Shown here: piece by piece, positions 33,974-41,434 of the stretch
Layout: each line of letters begins with the position of its first letter
Numbering within the stretch: the stretch's first letter is position 1
NCBI GenBank assembly: GCA_029218425.1
Contig: JAQXRH010000010.1
Coordinates: forward strand, 49,703-113,702
Source of the DNA: Bacteroidales bacterium
GTDB lineage: Bacteria > Bacteroidota > Bacteroidia > Bacteroidales > Muribaculaceae
DNA length: 64,000 bases
Direction of reading: 5' to 3'
Notes under the pieces: generated by a model
What the model saw: the letters and a program-made list of their open reading frames with translations, nothing else
Database searches by the model: none
Told to the model about the DNA's origin: nothing
Translations under genes and position numbers: made by a program

Positions 33974-34008
33974 GCGTCTTGGTTCTGTGTAGAGGCTTTA
34001 GCCTCGCC
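33974..34008 (+). repeat. REP-like repeat (gcgtcttggttctgtgtagaggctttagcctcgcc), copy 1
   Basis: Core palindrome gaggctttagcctc. Confidence 0.85.
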
Positions 34009-35484: not shown

Positions 35485-35991
35485 TCACCGCCATCCCAGC
35501 AGCCTCGGCAACCCTCCGCCACCTATGCTGTCTATCGTCTCTCGCATCATCTCCATCCCGCGCTCCCATCGCTGCTCGTAGCCTGCCCCTTCGCCCACGC
35601 TCTCATAAATCGCCCCAAGCACCATGTTCGCCATCACTCCTACCATCATCCTCTCTATCGCCGGCCTTACTATCTCCGCCCCCGCATACGCTCCCTTCAG
35701 CTCTATCCACATCGTCCCCACTGTCCCACTCTCGCTCTCCTCATATCCTACCACTCTCGGCATCAGGCCTATCACTACCTCCGCAAACGCATCTCTCACC
35801 AGCTCCGTCAATCCTTCGCTCTGATCCTCCTGCAGCAACGCCCGCTCTCGCTCGGGCAGGTTGACATAGCCCTGCAATGCCGTCACCGCATATATCTTCT
35901 CCATCACTTCCCGCTCTGCTATCTCTATCCTCATCGCTATTTCTCCTATCCCTTTATTTCCGTTTCTACTATTTCCTTTTCTCTCATCCAC
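35485..35991 (-). CDS. Hypothetical protein, last gene of the capsid cassette
   Basis: 168-aa ORF overlapping the upstream gene by a few bases; no recognised family. Confidence 0.55.
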   Translation of the reverse strand: MDERKGNSRNGNKGIGEIAMRIEIAEREVMEKIYAVTALQGYVNLPERERALLQEDQSEGLTELVRDAFAEVVIGLMPRVVGYEESESGTVGTMWIELKGAYAGAEIVRPAIERMMVGVMANMVLGAIYESVGEGAGYEQRWERGMEMMRETIDSIGGGGLPRLLGWR

Positions 35992-36457
35992 TCATCCACT
36001 CTCTCCTACACATCTCCCTGTAATACAATTGCTTCGCATACGCCCTCGTCATGAAAAACGACGACGCTCTCCCTCCCACCAACACTTCCGTCAACGCTTC
36101 CCCAAGTCTCACCCCGCGTCGCTCCATTATCCCTATGCATTTCCTCCCTATCTCTATCATCATGTCGCGCCGCGAATGTCGCCGCAATTTCCCGCTATAA
36201 CGCTCTATCACCCCCCTGCTTATCAAATCGCCTACTGCCCGCCGGGCATATCGGTAACTCACATAATACCCCGGCGCTTCTTGCTCCAACACGGCCCTTA
36301 TCACGCCTTCTACCGTCACTGCCTCCCCGCGCTCATATCGCTGCTGCTTCTCTCGCCTCACCGCTCTCATGAACTCTCTATTGCGCTGCTCTGTATTTTC
36401 TGCCATTGCTCTCCTTTTTTTTATTATCGTTGGCAAAATTACCGCTCGCATGGGCAT
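35984..36457 (-). CDS. Hypothetical protein of the capsid cassette, basic
   Basis: 157-aa ORF in line with the portal-like gene; VEGVIRAVLEQEAPGYYVSYRYARRAVGDLISRGVI. Confidence 0.6.
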   Translation of the reverse strand: MPMRAVILPTIIKKRRAMAENTEQRNREFMRAVRREKQQRYERGEAVTVEGVIRAVLEQEAPGYYVSYRYARRAVGDLISRGVIERYSGKLRRHSRRDMMIEIGRKCIGIMERRGVRLGEALTEVLVGGRASSFFMTRAYAKQLYYREMCRREWMSG

Positions 36458-36489
36458 AACTACTGCCCGGTATAGTTAAAATGGTAAAA

Positions 36490-37965
36490 TTACCACAAAA
36501 TACCACGGAGCTTCTCGTCTCGCTCTTCCCTGAAATGCTCAAACGTAAGCAGCAGGTCGTTTATCGCTACGGTGGCATTCTTCACTTCGCTCTCATATCG
36601 CTCATATCCAACATTGCCGCCGCCGCTGCTCCTGCCCAACAATGAATTGCTCACCCCCGACACGTCCTCAAGCATCTGCAACTCCAAACTCAGCAATTCC
36701 CGCGCTCCGAAATCTCCGGCATTCGTTATCAACTGCTTCGGCTCGGGCACTCCGTCTACCGCCTCGTAGGGTATCACTCCGTCGGGCGACGCCCATAGCG
36801 TCGACAGTTTCTCCCAATCCATATTCGTCGACCGCTGACTCTTCGGAAATAGCAACACTCCTTTCGCCGACGTGCTCATCACTCTGTCCATCAACGTGAT
36901 AAGCCGGTTCACATATATCTGCTGGTCTATGACATCCTCTACCAGCGAATGTACCTCCCCGTCGGTCAACGGATACAGCTTCACTACAAACGGATGGCTC
37001 CCGTGCCCGTAGGGCGACATATACTCGCTCACAACGCTCCCGTCGGCGGTCATCCACCGGCATCGCCAACCTATGCTGTGCGTGACCACGCTATCTATCT
37101 TATGCTCCTCGCCACGCTCTTGCCGTTGCCGGTTCGCTTCATCTATCCAATCGGCCTCGCTCCCTCTCTCTATCCCGCAGCGCCCCGTAGCTCGGTCATA
37201 CCACTTTACTACCTCGCTGCTCTCCAATGTCCACACTTCTACCAAACGGCTTCGCCCTCGCTCTCGGCTTCGCCCAAACTGCTCGCTGCCTCCAGGCCTC
37301 ATCCCCAAAATGCTCTCTCCCGCGCTCTCCTCTACCTGCCACAACAGCTCTCTTATCGCTTTCGCTTTGCTCCGGCTCCCGTATGAAAAGCGCATCACTG
37401 CCTCTGCAGGGCTCATGTCATGCAACATCCCTATCATCTCTATGTCGTCACCCCGCGGATCGGTGAACCTGTTCACGAAAAATTTCCCCGGACTCACATT
37501 GTCTACTCTCACGCCTCGCCGCCCAGGTCGCAGCTCATCGGTCACTCGCTGTACGGCCATCCCCGATATCAGAAATTCCTCCAACGCGCGGCTGTCCATC
37601 TCGTCAAGACTGTTCTCGCGGTATATCTTCGCCATCACGCCATCTCTTATCACTCCTCCACCTTCTCCATCTTCTATCCTCATCCTGAATCTGCCCACCA
37701 CGCATTTCACCATCCTCCTTATCAGATTATTGGTCATCGGGTCTTTGCCATGCTTGAGCGCCTGCTCCCGCGTGGTCATCTTCGTCCCGTCGGGCTCCTC
37801 TATGATGTCGCTCCACTGGTCGCCATATGTGAACCGCTTATACCGCTCGCGCCGCTCCCTGAACTCCGCTCCTCGCTCCCACGCTCGCCGCGCCGCCTGC
37901 ATTATCCCTATCGTCAAGTCATCCTTGACTATCCTATTCTCTCTCGCTTCCCTTTTCTCTTTCAT
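36490..37965 (-). CDS. Phage portal-like protein
   Basis: RRYKRFTYGDQWSD...MTNNLIRRMVKCVVGRFR...EDVIDQQIYVNRLITLMDRVMSTSAKGVLLFP...LQMLEDVSGVSNSLLGRSS, typical of portal core. Confidence 0.75.
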   Translation of the reverse strand: MKEKREARENRIVKDDLTIGIMQAARRAWERGAEFRERRERYKRFTYGDQWSDIIEEPDGTKMTTREQALKHGKDPMTNNLIRRMVKCVVGRFRMRIEDGEGGGVIRDGVMAKIYRENSLDEMDSRALEEFLISGMAVQRVTDELRPGRRGVRVDNVSPGKFFVNRFTDPRGDDIEMIGMLHDMSPAEAVMRFSYGSRSKAKAIRELLWQVEESAGESILGMRPGGSEQFGRSRERGRSRLVEVWTLESSEVVKWYDRATGRCGIERGSEADWIDEANRQRQERGEEHKIDSVVTHSIGWRCRWMTADGSVVSEYMSPYGHGSHPFVVKLYPLTDGEVHSLVEDVIDQQIYVNRLITLMDRVMSTSAKGVLLFPKSQRSTNMDWEKLSTLWASPDGVIPYEAVDGVPEPKQLITNAGDFGARELLSLELQMLEDVSGVSNSLLGRSSGGGNVGYERYESEVKNATVAINDLLLTFEHFREERDEKLRGILW

Positions 37966-38039
37966 CGCCTTTCCTCGCTATTGGTTTCGTTTATCTCTCT
38001 ATCTCCAATCATCCCGCCCTTCCCGCCCCAGCTCCATTG

Positions 38040-38579
38040 CTATATTATCGAAAACAACAATCCTCGTTCCATCTCATAACTGCCGTCGGCCGGTGCGGCT
38101 ATGCACGTCAACTCGCTCAGCTCCCCTTCGCCTACCTTGCTATAAAGCGTCAACTTGCGCCCTCTCACCACTGCTATCGGGCCGCAACTCCCGCCTCTCA
38201 CATATCGGCTCGTCTGCATCCTCGCCATCGCTCCGTCGCTGTCCTCCAATATCCGTGCCGCTCGCTTCCACCCGCTTAGCCTCACTGCTATCGGCCTTAC
38301 GCACGCCGCCGGCAATTCTACATCTATCGTTCCATCTCCGTTGTCGGTCACTTTCGCCTCACCTTTGAGGTCGCGCTGGGGCAACATCATCGGATGCTCT
38401 GTCATCAGCAACCCGCTATACCAGTCGTCTATCTCCGACATCAGCTGCTCATCCAAGCTCTGGCTGTTCTCCATCGTTACTGTCATCGTCGACGTCGTCA
38501 CCGGAAGCATCCCTTTCCTTCGCTTCCACTCCCGCAGCATCTCTTCCTTGCTCAATTTTATCATCATAATCCTACTCAT
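38040..38579 (-). CDS. Hypothetical protein between portal-like and MCP-like genes
   Basis: 179-aa ORF, KVTDNGDGTIDVELPAACVRPIAVRLSGWKRAARIL; position suggests a head-associated role. Confidence 0.6.
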   Translation of the reverse strand: MSRIMMIKLSKEEMLREWKRRKGMLPVTTSTMTVTMENSQSLDEQLMSEIDDWYSGLLMTEHPMMLPQRDLKGEAKVTDNGDGTIDVELPAACVRPIAVRLSGWKRAARILEDSDGAMARMQTSRYVRGGSCGPIAVVRGRKLTLYSKVGEGELSELTCIAAPADGSYEMERGLLFSII

Positions 38580-38636
38580 CTCAATATAATCCCCTATAAC
38601 CCCTAACCCATACCCCCATAACCTATAACCTATAAC

Positions 38637-40310
38637 TTACACTCCTATCACTCTTACATGAGCCTCCGGATATCGAAGCACCAAGCACGACGCCTCCGTA
38701 ATCACTATCGCCTCGGTATTGCGCTGACCGCTCCGGCGCAAATCCAATCGCTCTGTTCTGAACGGCACATGGCTATACTTCGTCAGATACTCCGGGTCGA
38801 TAATCATCCCGTCATGTGGATGTCCGCACTGGTCAAATATCTCCGACGCCAATACGTAGAGCTTGCCAAATTTCGTCACTATCTCCGTGAAGTCAAGCCC
38901 CCAGCGGGTCATCGTCTCCGTCGCACCTACTGTCTTTACATGCTCCAGCTTGTTAAGCTCCTCTATTAGCATCGTACCCCCGATGAGCAGTTTCTTCGAC
39001 GACCCGCCATTACCCGTAAATGCCGCTCGCGATATCTCTATCAGTCGGTTCATATCCAACGCGCCCTTGGTGTACTCGCACTCTTTCCCGGCTTGATGCC
39101 ATATGCCCCCGGTCAGCATTATCTCGCTGTTCTTTATCGGATCTGTCAACGTGCACGCCGACCCAAACAAAAAGTTCTTCTCCATGCCGCGGCGCATATC
39201 ACTTATCGCTGCCTCTTCCTGATCCGAAAAACTCCAACCTACCTCTTTATTCGCTATCTTGTGATACGTCGACTGCTCTACCTGTGCCTTGAATATCTGG
39301 CAATTGTTGCTCTTCTTGGTCGGCAAGGCCTCAAACTGTGGCGTCTGCACATCAAGCTCTGCAGCTGCTCGCCCCATTCTTACCAACACCGTCCCTGCCG
39401 GTAGCACCGGTACGCTCGACCCGCGACTCGTCTCATTGTTCACCGCTATTACCGATATCCCGGCACTATCCTTCGCCACTACGTAGAGCACCAAGGTCGC
39501 TCGCTCGCCCGCCTTGTTCTCTGCCATCACTTCTGGTACCATTATGGTCTCCGACGGCTCGAAGATACCGTCATCAGCCGTCTTCAACAACGCGCCTTCG
39601 GTCTTCCCCCAGTTAGCTATCACGGTCGACTCCTGCGTCAGCTTCGTCATCACGGCCTTCGTGTCAACCGAATAATACTCTACCGTCATCGACCCGCACT
39701 TGCGTGTGCCGGCATGGCGCGATATCTGGTCTATCGGAGTTGCCATCGGACGTATCTTCACTATGCGCTCGTCTATCTCATTTCGCAATAGCTCCGGCGA
39801 CCCTTCTCGGCTCGTCTGCAACGTCAACGGCTCTCCCTCTACATGCTTACCGCCTGCCACGCCGGCTATCACACTCATAGCCAAGCCATACTCGCTGCCT
39901 CCGCTACATCCGTCAAGCAACAGCTCCACTACGATTATCACCGCAATCAGCCCCAGCATCTTTAATACTCGCTTCATCATCCCTTTCTCCGTTAATCCAT
40001 TTACTCCGTTCTTCAATCCTTCCATCTTCTCATCCTTTTTCTCGTTAACAACTCTTTTCGCTTTCCCACTCTTCTTCTCATCAGCTACCACAGTAGCTTT
40101 CCCACTAACTTTCACATCACCATTCTCTTTCATCTTCACTCTCTTTTTCTCATTAGTTACCACATTAGCTTTCTCACTAACTTTCTCATCACCATTCTCT
40201 TTCATCTTCTCATCACTTTTCTCGTTAACAACTCTTTTCATCTTCACTCTCTTTTTCTCATTAGTTACCACATTAGCTTTCCCATTAAATTTCTCATCCA
40301 TCTTTTTCAT
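38637..40310 (-). CDS. SU10/HK97-type major-capsid-like protein with Lys-rich repeats and a transmembrane segment at the N-terminus
   Basis: NCQIFKAQVEQSTYHKIANKEVGWSFSDQEEAAISDMRRGMEKNFLFG...LLIGGTMLIEELNKLEHVKTVGATETMTRWGLDFTEIVTKFGKLYVLASEIFDQCGHPHDGMIIDPEYLTKY (MCP-like); MMKRVLKMLGLIAVIIVVELLLDGC (TM). Confidence 0.7.
   Translation of the reverse strand: MKKMDEKFNGKANVVTNEKKRVKMKRVVNEKSDEKMKENGDEKVSEKANVVTNEKKRVKMKENGDVKVSGKATVVADEKKSGKAKRVVNEKKDEKMEGLKNGVNGLTEKGMMKRVLKMLGLIAVIIVVELLLDGCSGGSEYGLAMSVIAGVAGGKHVEGEPLTLQTSREGSPELLRNEIDERIVKIRPMATPIDQISRHAGTRKCGSMTVEYYSVDTKAVMTKLTQESTVIANWGKTEGALLKTADDGIFEPSETIMVPEVMAENKAGERATLVLYVVAKDSAGISVIAVNNETSRGSSVPVLPAGTVLVRMGRAAAELDVQTPQFEALPTKKSNNCQIFKAQVEQSTYHKIANKEVGWSFSDQEEAAISDMRRGMEKNFLFGSACTLTDPIKNSEIMLTGGIWHQAGKECEYTKGALDMNRLIEISRAAFTGNGGSSKKLLIGGTMLIEELNKLEHVKTVGATETMTRWGLDFTEIVTKFGKLYVLASEIFDQCGHPHDGMIIDPEYLTKYSHVPFRTERLDLRRSGQRNTEAIVITEASCLVLRYPEAHVRVIGV
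40018..40306. repeat. Intragenic repeats inside the N-terminus of the MCP-like gene
   Basis: cttcactctctttttctcattagttaccacattagctttc at ~40134 and ~40242; tcatcttctcatc.ctttttctcgttaacaactctttt at ~40020 and ~40200. Confidence 0.8.
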
Positions 40311-40409
40311 TAATAATTATTATTAGTATCCTAAAACTATTATATCCATATCTCCGACCTGCCTTCCCTCGCTCGTCGGCCCTTTGCCCGCCTGCTCTGC
40401 CTCGCCTCT

Positions 40410-40445
40410 GCGTCTTGGTTCTGTGTAGAGGCTTTAGCCTCGCCC
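40410..40445 (+). repeat. REP-like repeat, copy 2
   Basis: gcgtcttggttctgtgtagaggctttagcctcgcc. Confidence 0.85.
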
Positions 40446-40455
40446 GCCGCCTCCA

Positions 40456-40505
40456 TTATCTCTCGATAAATCTCGATAAATCTCGATAAATCCCGATAAA
40501 TCCCA
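40456..40505 (+). repeat. Short tandem repeat (tcgataaatc)n
   Basis: ctctcgataaatctcgataaatctcgataaatcccgataaatccc. Confidence 0.85.
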
Positions 40506-40538
40506 CCACGCCTCGCCCGCCGCCACGCCTCGCCTCAG

Positions 40539-40572
40539 CGTCTTGGTTCTGTGTAGAGGCTTTAGCCTCGCC
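40539..40572 (+). repeat. REP-like repeat, copy 3
   Basis: gcgtcttggttctgtgtagaggctttagcctcgcc. Confidence 0.85.
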
Positions 40573-40602
40573 CGCCGGCCCCCTGCCGGCCTCGCCTCGC
40601 CG

Positions 40603-40712
40603 CGGGCGTCCGGCGGACGCCGATTATTAGTAGCCCCGTACGCCGAGCGCAGCGAGGTGTGCGGGGTTCCGTGCGCCCCCGTCAGCAGGCGTCCGTAGCG
40701 ACGCCGATTTAC
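40603..40712 (+). repeat. Structured intergenic repeat, copy 3
   Basis: gggcgtccggcggacgccgattattagtagccccgtacgccgagcgcagcgaggtgtgcgggg...caggcgtccgtagcgacgccgatttac. Confidence 0.85.
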
Positions 40713-40740
40713 ATCTCCCATCGTCCATCGCCACGCCTCA

Positions 40741-40775
40741 GCGTCTTGGCCCTGTGTAGAGGCTTTAGCCTCGCC
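40741..40775 (+). repeat. REP-like repeat, copy 4 (diverged)
   Basis: gcgtcttggccctgtgtagaggctttagcctcgcc. Confidence 0.8.
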
Positions 40776-40831
40776 CACCGCTCCCAGCAAGTCTTGCGAT
40801 TCGTAAAGGCTATTACCCCCACTCATCCACT

Positions 40832-41290
40832 CTACTCCCACACACTCCTGCGCATATTGTTTAGTATCATCACCTCACTATCTCCCACATCATCGCCAAT
40901 CACTCGTCGGCCATCCCAACGCTCCGCAACACCTTCGCGCATCCACGCCTCAATCCCCTCATGCCTCCCTCGCTCATACCCACGAGCCTCAGCCTCTGCG
41001 ATCAACCGCTCAATCTCTACACCGCTCACCATCGCTCCAGCCTCGCCATCCGCCTCAGCCTTCAGCCCAGCCTCCTCCTCCTTCAGCTCCGCCTCCGCTT
41101 CGGCCTCCGTCAGCTCATCGCCCGCCGCCTCGCTCGCCGCATCCGCACCGCCTCCGCTCTCATCTTTCGCTTCCGCTTGCTCCGCCTCCGCTGCTCCAAC
41201 CACAAGCTCAGGCCCGATTTCTCCATTTTGTCCATCTCGCACTTCCGCCTTTTCTACCATTTTTTCTTCCTTTTCTGCCATTTCTTTCAT
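40832..41290 (-). CDS. Acidic Ala/Glu-rich coiled-coil protein, scaffold-like by composition and position
   Basis: KEMAEKEEKMVEKAEV...DELTEAEAEAELKEEEAGLKAEADGEAGAMVSGVEIERLIAEAEARGYERGRHEGIEAWM. Confidence 0.6.
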   Translation of the reverse strand: MKEMAEKEEKMVEKAEVRDGQNGEIGPELVVGAAEAEQAEAKDESGGGADAASEAAGDELTEAEAEAELKEEEAGLKAEADGEAGAMVSGVEIERLIAEAEARGYERGRHEGIEAWMREGVAERWDGRRVIGDDVGDSEVMILNNMRRSVWE

Positions 41291-41434
41291 ATCTATCTTT
41301 ATTTTAATGGTTTATAACTCATTTACACTGCAAAGTTAAGACCCCATTCCCCCCAAAATGCGTCAAAATCATACACTCCTTTCAAAAAAATTTACAAATC
41401 CCCTCAAAAAATTTTATTTTTCAAAATCTTTATT

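Follow-up and report, generated by a model that had tools for sequence, protein, structure and literature searches.

What is a virus head doing among the core genes of a gut bacterium? Genes for a phage portal and a major capsid protein (MCP) stand between recO and metK in a 64,000-nucleotide stretch of a Muribaculaceae genome (Bacteroidales bacterium, assembly GCA_029218425.1, contig JAQXRH010000010.1, positions 49,703 to 113,702; hereafter the window), and an earlier note made from this stretch had proposed either a reduced prophage or a domesticated capsid system resembling encapsulins, gene transfer agents (GTAs) or satellite packaging modules. Of these options, GTA-like domestication is strongly supported by our results, which comprise conservation across the family and six others, purifying selection, a promoter motif shared by unlinked loci, dispersal of the genes, and the presence of a lysis pair and an intact terminase; the other options are not supported. 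We consider it likely that the genes belong to a domesticated podovirus working as a GTA-like system, with the cassette in the window as its head-and-neck transcription unit. Muribaculaceae and at least six sister families keep the head, DNA-packaging, short-tail and lysis genes of a virus at several chromosomal sites, probably to make virus-like particles containing their own DNA.

A probable head-and-neck cassette among core genes

The six minus-strand open reading frames (ORFs) of the cassette lie where the earlier note had placed them and are uninterrupted (Table 1). Its portal-like and MCP-like calls are borne out by strong matches to Pfam (P22_portal, E = 5e-19; SU10_MCP, E = 2.5e-49) and PHROGs (phrog_156, E = 9e-35; phrog_26635, E = 1e-81), respectively, and the MCP profile also matches the MCP of podophage VP1 (PDB 9in6, E = 5e-13). 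Core genes at both flanks were likewise recovered by Pfam, with metK at one end and recO (plus strand), rpsT and dnaX at the opposite end. Tight spacing, also claimed, applies to the five genes from MCP to P35485 (57, 74 and 32 bp, then an 8-nt overlap), whereas scaffold and MCP genes are 521 bp apart, so that the spacing of the cassette is not uniformly tight. Iterated profiles over the retrieved loci show that the order scaffold-MCP-P38040-portal-P35984-P35485 is kept in many genera.

The acidic scaffold protein accompanies the MCP in 76 of 80 loci (genome contigs) and is linked by an iterated profile to gp48, whose gene lies just upstream of the MCP gene in Bacteroides phage BKO1-TP3. Head closure, which had been listed as absent, appears to be present after all. 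The AlphaFold2 model of P38040 (pLDDT 87.5) shares its fold with phage head-tail ring proteins, and its 13 best Foldseek matches in the PDB all come from phage tails, necks or connectors (including phicrAss001, Carin-1, KHP30, Pa223, SU10 and phage 812), with TM scores of 0.23-0.49 and E below 0.001 for the first match only. Because all 13 matches are of this kind, we read P38040, which is also homologous to phage gp45, as a putative head-tail adaptor, which would place head closure within the cassette.

P35984 is a candidate small terminase (TerS) on account of the position of its homologues before terL, the gene of the large terminase (TerL). A homologue lies directly upstream of terL on the same strand in two prophages of the family (L073 and L074), and another (phrog_27246) lies one gene upstream of terL in BKO1-TP3. 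The model of P35984 (pLDDT 87.6) is all-helical with two internally similar halves, and Foldseek returned no match to it in the PDB. Sequence-profile comparison with the PDB was uninformative for the candidate adaptor, nozzle and TerS proteins, and no NCBIfam model scored above its cut-off for ten proteins tried, five of them from the cassette (scaffold excluded). The last protein, P35485, has 20 homologous ORFs in the first set of cassette loci and one in locus L163, after noz, terL and the TerS candidate; no phage homologue of it was found in the cassette and prophage loci searched.

Packaging, probable nozzle and lysis genes on other contigs

Terminase and lysis genes had been reported missing, which is correct for the window and incorrect for the genome, an 87%-complete assembly in which particle and lysis genes occupy four contigs, namely C10 (the cassette), C4 (terL), C1 (noz) and C81 (holin and amidase). 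The TerL profile matches T4 gp17 (E = 4e-15); the ATPase motifs are present in 30 of 30 TerL proteins and the nuclease motifs in 28-30 of the 30, one protein falling short of some because its contig ends. The noz product has the N-terminal pattern CxNLR...PVGxP, and from this pattern and the general features of nozzle proteins, not from a database match, we take it to be a nozzle candidate. In many other genera noz is directly upstream of terL.

The holin and amidase encoded on C81 match Phage_holin_4_1 (PF05105, E = 4e-6) and Amidase_2 (E = 8e-17), respectively. In one relative (genome G024, locus L058) a holin and an M15 peptidase stand in line with the portal; in about 19 loci the gene directly after the MCP encodes an M15 peptidase, and relatives also have holin-M15 pairs alone between housekeeping genes. 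Dispersal is not an assembly effect, since in genome G013 the cassette and terL are about 950 kb apart on a single 1.59-Mb contig. A terminase at this locus in neighbouring strains had been named as an observation that would speak against domestication. In some genera terL does lie beside the cassette, as a domesticated gene with no phage around it.

A promoter motif shared by unlinked loci

The motif TTTTGRCGCATTTTG-N15-TANNTTTG occurs without mismatch upstream of scaffold, terL, noz and holin genes on C10, C4, C1 and C81, respectively, and the copy before the scaffold is its single match in the window. Genome-wide, we found 17 sites at ≤3 mismatches versus 0 for the reversed control; six copies are exact, four of which precede phage-derived units. 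Given 17 sites, simple arithmetic predicts about 0.004 chance occurrences within 250 nt upstream of four chosen genes, a figure that tests specificity and is not an independent prediction, because the motif was defined from the same four sites. Independent recurrence is seen in other species, at all four units in G001, at scaffold, noz and holin in G005, and at noz and holin in G004, where the terL copy has four mismatches. For a fair figure the genome-wide count should be used; the scan over retrieved loci is biased towards particle genes.

We take TANNTTTG to be the Bacteroidota -7 element. The usual spacing to a -33 TTTG is not met, which suggests that the motif may be read by an activator or an alternative sigma factor. 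Exclusivity to phage genes was considered and rejected, as host genes with the motif were found in the genome-wide scan. The other two exact copies lie at L386 (G000:C3) and L399 (G000:C28); one is followed some 200 nt downstream by an ORF that on visual inspection resembles a protein with a von Willebrand A domain (the 135 aa seen gave no Pfam match), and the other has no clear target. Several further sites also have no obvious target gene.

Conservation, placement and inheritance

The MCP scan of GTDB genomes yielded 358 stretches encoding relatives. The domesticated-type portal is present in about 51 of 59 Muribaculaceae genomes examined, and TerL, MCP and noz were found in 36/40, 36/39 and 37/39 genomes of the searched family subsets, counts that include a few prophage copies or fragments. 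Occurrence in a single strain, which the earlier note would have held against domestication, is therefore excluded, as most family genomes carry the genes. Among 295 Bacteroidales genomes, an order-wide scan detected the domesticated-type MCP in six further families (2-3 genomes each), and TerL accompanies it in 17/17 such genomes outside Muribaculaceae. Across some 30 genera and these six families, particle genes are usually present in one copy per genome, as estimated from profile searches that can miss or split fragments.

Within a genus the genes keep the same placement; between genera they occupy different sites among housekeeping genes. In regions from four further families, particle genes are interspersed with housekeeping genes over 14 to 55 kb, and scaffold-MCP adjoins fumarase in all four; in two of these four, portal and noz stand side by side in divergent orientation, close to a cysteine-desulfurase-like gene. 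No replication or integration genes were recognised beside particle genes in the inspected neighbourhoods, where only part of the flanking ORFs were run against family models, and no other phage genes were recognised at the flanks, where att sites were not searched for.

The dN/dS values, which are rough because synonymous sites are near saturation, are ~0.03-0.15 for the MCP and 0.05-0.25 for the portal, and higher for the small proteins, with P35485 under the weakest constraint (0.22-0.56). Frameshifts, whose accumulation in relatives had been named as a sign against domestication, are rare. For 35 of 41 portals the nearest neighbour comes from the same genus, against a chance expectation of 1.7. 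Mantel tests show that portal, MCP, TerL, noz and metG distances are all positively correlated, weakly so without the genus of the window; because congruence between distant genera is weak, the case for vertical descent depends chiefly on the same-genus comparison.

Two arrangements stand apart. The complete chromosome of a member of another family (G314; L344 and L345) encodes, next to the domesticated genes, a shortened homologue (788 aa, similar to gp55) of a giant phage protein and a gp57-like protein, parts that are lost or not found in Muribaculaceae. In an aberrant genus of the family, G036 (L069) has a phage-like arrangement only, while in G055 (L068) the nuclease half of the terminase is degenerate and the portal branch very long, perhaps reflecting loss of function.

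Related phages and viral contigs

The nearest named phages are the temperate Bacteroides phages BKO1-TP3 (PQ571269), BS-TP4 (PQ571277) and BF1-TP2 (PQ571263), all three of which have a portal homologous to that of the window, at 31-33% identity. BKO1-TP3 has homologues of seven of eight particle genes (scaffold, MCP, adaptor, portal, TerS candidate, TerL and noz). These phages are whole genomes of 64-68 kb, whereas the host particle genes are dispersed, and BKO1-TP3 carries an integrase, replication genes and very large proteins, none of which was seen at the inspected host loci. The BKO1-TP3 portal is full-length and that of the window shorter. Muribaculaceae portals have mostly ~425-550 residues (one open frame of 598) versus ~650-670 in the phages, and alignment shows that ~150-170 residues at the C-terminal end of the phage proteins have no counterpart in them. 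The portal tree unites the phages with G036 and two genomes of other families in a fully supported group, separate from other Muribaculaceae. Related prophages also exist within the family (L073, L074, L075 and L079). The BKO1-TP3 protein gp51 (L032:22425-24539), annotated as a tail spike, is TerL according to PHROGs and alignment.

IMG/VR contains no close match to the window portal, and against it the domesticated-type MCP finds only five contigs at 59-63% identity, followed by matches at ≤42%. Four of the five carry Muribaculaceae-type genes and no other recognised phage genes, and are probably bacterial fragments mistaken for viruses. Compact clusters of up to 9 kb, probably such bacterial fragments, occur on L403 (IMGVR_UViG_3300043106_000192), L402 and L404, with the order noz-terL-scaffold-MCP-adaptor-portal-TerS candidate on L403. 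The fifth contig, L405 (IMGVR_UViG_2681813420_000001), whose MCP is 59% identical to the Muribaculaceae type, is contiguous and more phage-like, with TerL, TerS candidate, scaffold, MCP, adaptor and a phage lysozyme; it is possibly the closest living relative of the domesticated ancestor, or else a domesticated set that has not dispersed.

With somewhat less assurance than for the GTA-like role itself, we favour the view that a single podovirus lineage was domesticated in an ancestor shared by Muribaculaceae and at least six sister families, and that the descendants of this ancestor still make host-DNA particles from several co-regulated chromosomal loci, which would constitute the first GTA of Bacteroidota, in abundant gut bacteria. 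Stages of dispersal, to which we give the same qualified credence, would then be represented by compact clusters (L403), an interspersed set of 33-55 kb in other families and the scattered units of the window's genome.

Proposed mechanism and points against it

We infer the following sequence of events. A shared regulator or alternative promoter would turn on at least four unlinked units, namely scaffold-MCP-adaptor-portal-TerS candidate-P35485, terL, noz and holin-amidase-lipoprotein. Scaffold and MCP would build a procapsid on the portal, into which TerL, perhaps with the TerS candidate, would package double-stranded DNA. Since no phage genome accompanies the genes, the packaged DNA could only be that of the host, and since the set includes a DNA motor, an empty shell is an unlikely end product. 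The adaptor and nozzle would close the head and make a short tail, and the holin and amidase (the M15 peptidase in relatives) would lyse the producing cell. Delivery to other cells, the least supported step, might follow.

Several observations weigh against the GTA-like interpretation. Among the motif-bearing genes inspected, none was identified as encoding a tail-fibre or receptor-binding protein or as a recipient (competence or uptake) gene, and in the window's genus the motif is also found upstream of host genes (ilvA, a GH97-like gene and others, assigned by eye). The holin was not found in about one-third of the family genomes searched, and the M15 peptidase was found in fewer than half. 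Tree congruence between distant genera is weak, and the portal frame is interrupted in three retrieved copies (G005, G029 and G056), which could be assembly errors or real losses. Five hallmarks of GTAs are present, namely structural genes derived from a tailed phage, vertical inheritance under purifying selection, distribution over several loci, a functional-looking TerL and lysis genes; we call the system GTA-like and not a proven GTA.

Alternative explanations

The strongest competitor, possible and yet clearly less probable than a GTA-like role, is that the same domesticated particle serves another purpose, such as PBSX-like killing of competitors, altruistic lysis, the release of DNA that serves nutrition or biofilms, or the use of capsid or terminase parts to interfere with infecting phages, perhaps with host DNA packaged and never productively transferred. 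PBSX packages host DNA without transferring it (PMC7667829), and with neither a receptor-binding protein nor recipient functions identified, the anatomy of the system does not show delivery. However, the adaptor, the large nozzle-type protein and the intact TerL motor are all kept, which suggests ejection of packaged DNA, and PBSX-like elements typically have a killing tail module, of which none was seen here.

That the genes are a decaying or reduced prophage left by a recent infection is improbable. The clear phage homology, the three interrupted portals and the related prophages in the same family are what such an origin would offer in its favour. Against this, the genes are not generally degraded and are usually single-copy over their whole range; dN/dS is well below 1; placement is orthologous, both within genera and beside fumarase across four families; the signal is mostly vertical, with nearest neighbours from the same genus; and unlinked loci have a promoter in common. 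We rejected a prophage on distribution, selection and dispersal.

A helper-dependent phage satellite or phage-inducible chromosomal island (PICI) packaging module is very improbable: head genes do occur without replication genes, and some family genomes hold related helper-type prophages, but no integrase, satellite genes or mobile element was seen around the cassette or at the other inspected loci, the parts are dispersed singly among housekeeping genes, and most genomes carry them with or without a related prophage seen. An encapsulin-like nanocompartment, suggested by an HK97-type capsid gene among core genes, is equally hard to credit and was rejected, as portal, adaptor, TerL, nozzle-type protein and lysis genes are co-conserved (with a common motif in the window's genome), the MCP is SU10-type with its own scaffold, and no cargo enzyme is linked.

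Comparison with known systems and significance

By description, the GTA-like system of Bacteroidales appears closest in style to FpGTA of Faecalibacterium prausnitzii, a podovirus-like agent with two loci, lysis genes in the second, and particle evidence (PMC12946183). FpGTA likewise belongs to a gut anaerobe and is conserved across its genus; it has TerS (without an obvious DNA-binding domain), TerL, portal, scaffold and MCP in one locus and further structural genes, holin and endolysin in a second. It differs in being confined to one genus of Firmicutes, whereas the present system spans a family and six others, at least four loci, an SU10/P22-type lineage and a common promoter motif; and FpGTA is backed by particle, proteomic and DNA evidence, while the Bacteroidales system is known here from its genes.

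RcGTA and CcGTA of Alphaproteobacteria are siphovirus-like, in contrast to the podovirus-like Bacteroidales set. They resemble it as domesticated phages with a core cluster and unlinked accessory and lysis genes, a division typical of GTAs; they also have dedicated regulation, and known GTAs are reported to have a small terminase without a DNA-binding domain (PMC11841831). Encapsulins are also HK97-type capsid proteins kept by the host (PMC8346489); they form shells with cargo, whereas the Bacteroidales set keeps a complete DNA-packaging vertex.

GTAs are known from few lineages, and we found none described for Bacteroidota (Bacteroidales, Muribaculaceae, Barnesiella) in the open-access literature, to which our search was confined (subscription papers and preprints being outside its scope). 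If our reading is correct, major bacteria of the mouse and ruminant gut carry an inherited route for moving chromosomal DNA. It could also bear on the Bacteroidetes DNA with transduction-like coverage reported from virus-like particles of the mouse gut, although that paper draws no link to the present system (PMC7667829). Because families show different stages, it also becomes testable how a phage genome is dismantled and its genes rewired as part of a host regulon.

Feature coordinates and minor observations

Table 1. Features of the system in the window (plain coordinates) and on other contigs of the same genome (G000)
Feature	Coordinates	Strand	Basis or remark
Promoter motif of the cassette: TTTTGACGCATTTTG (41354-41368), 15 nt, TAACTTTG (41331-41338)	41331-41368	-	40 nt upstream of scaffold ATG
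Acidic scaffold protein, 152 aa	40832-41290	-	Co-occurrence with MCP; profile link to phage gp48
Scaffold-MCP gap with three copies of repeat GTGTAGAGGCTTTAGCCTC	40311-40831	-	
MCP, SU10/HK97-type	38637-40310	-	Pfam, PHROGs, PDB profile
Putative head-to-tail adaptor (ring) protein P38040, 179 aa	38040-38579	-	Predicted fold; homology to phage gp45
Portal protein, 491 aa	36490-37965	-	Pfam P22_portal, phrog_156
Candidate small terminase (TerS-like) P35984	35984-36457	-	Gene order only
Small protein P35485	35485-35991	-	Directly after TerS candidate; conserved start ATG at 35934
TerL	G000:C4:4-927		Cut by contig end
noz, probable tail-nozzle protein, 869 aa	G000:C1:25950-28376		Adjoins metG
Holin, Amidase_2 and small lipoprotein-like ORF	G000:C81		Between trpS-type synthetase and murI-like racemase genes

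The MCP of the window has a Lys/Glu-rich N-terminal extension and a hydrophobic N-terminal segment. A signal- or lipobox-like hydrophobic start (e.g., VIIVVELLLDGCSGG), odd for a capsid protein, is found in several MCPs (window, L033, L340, L344 and L350); other MCPs of the family are without such a stretch.

The repeat GTGTAGAGGCTTTAGCCTC (near-palindromic GAGGCTTTAGCCTC) occurs in the window at 33987, 40423, 40551, 40754, 42145, 43839, 43964 and 44102, all on one strand. The same genome has further copies in the noz locus (L278) and in the vicinity of terL (L148) and of the holin gene (L362). It is not present in the loci of other genomes (4.2 Mb) and is a genome-specific dispersed repeat.

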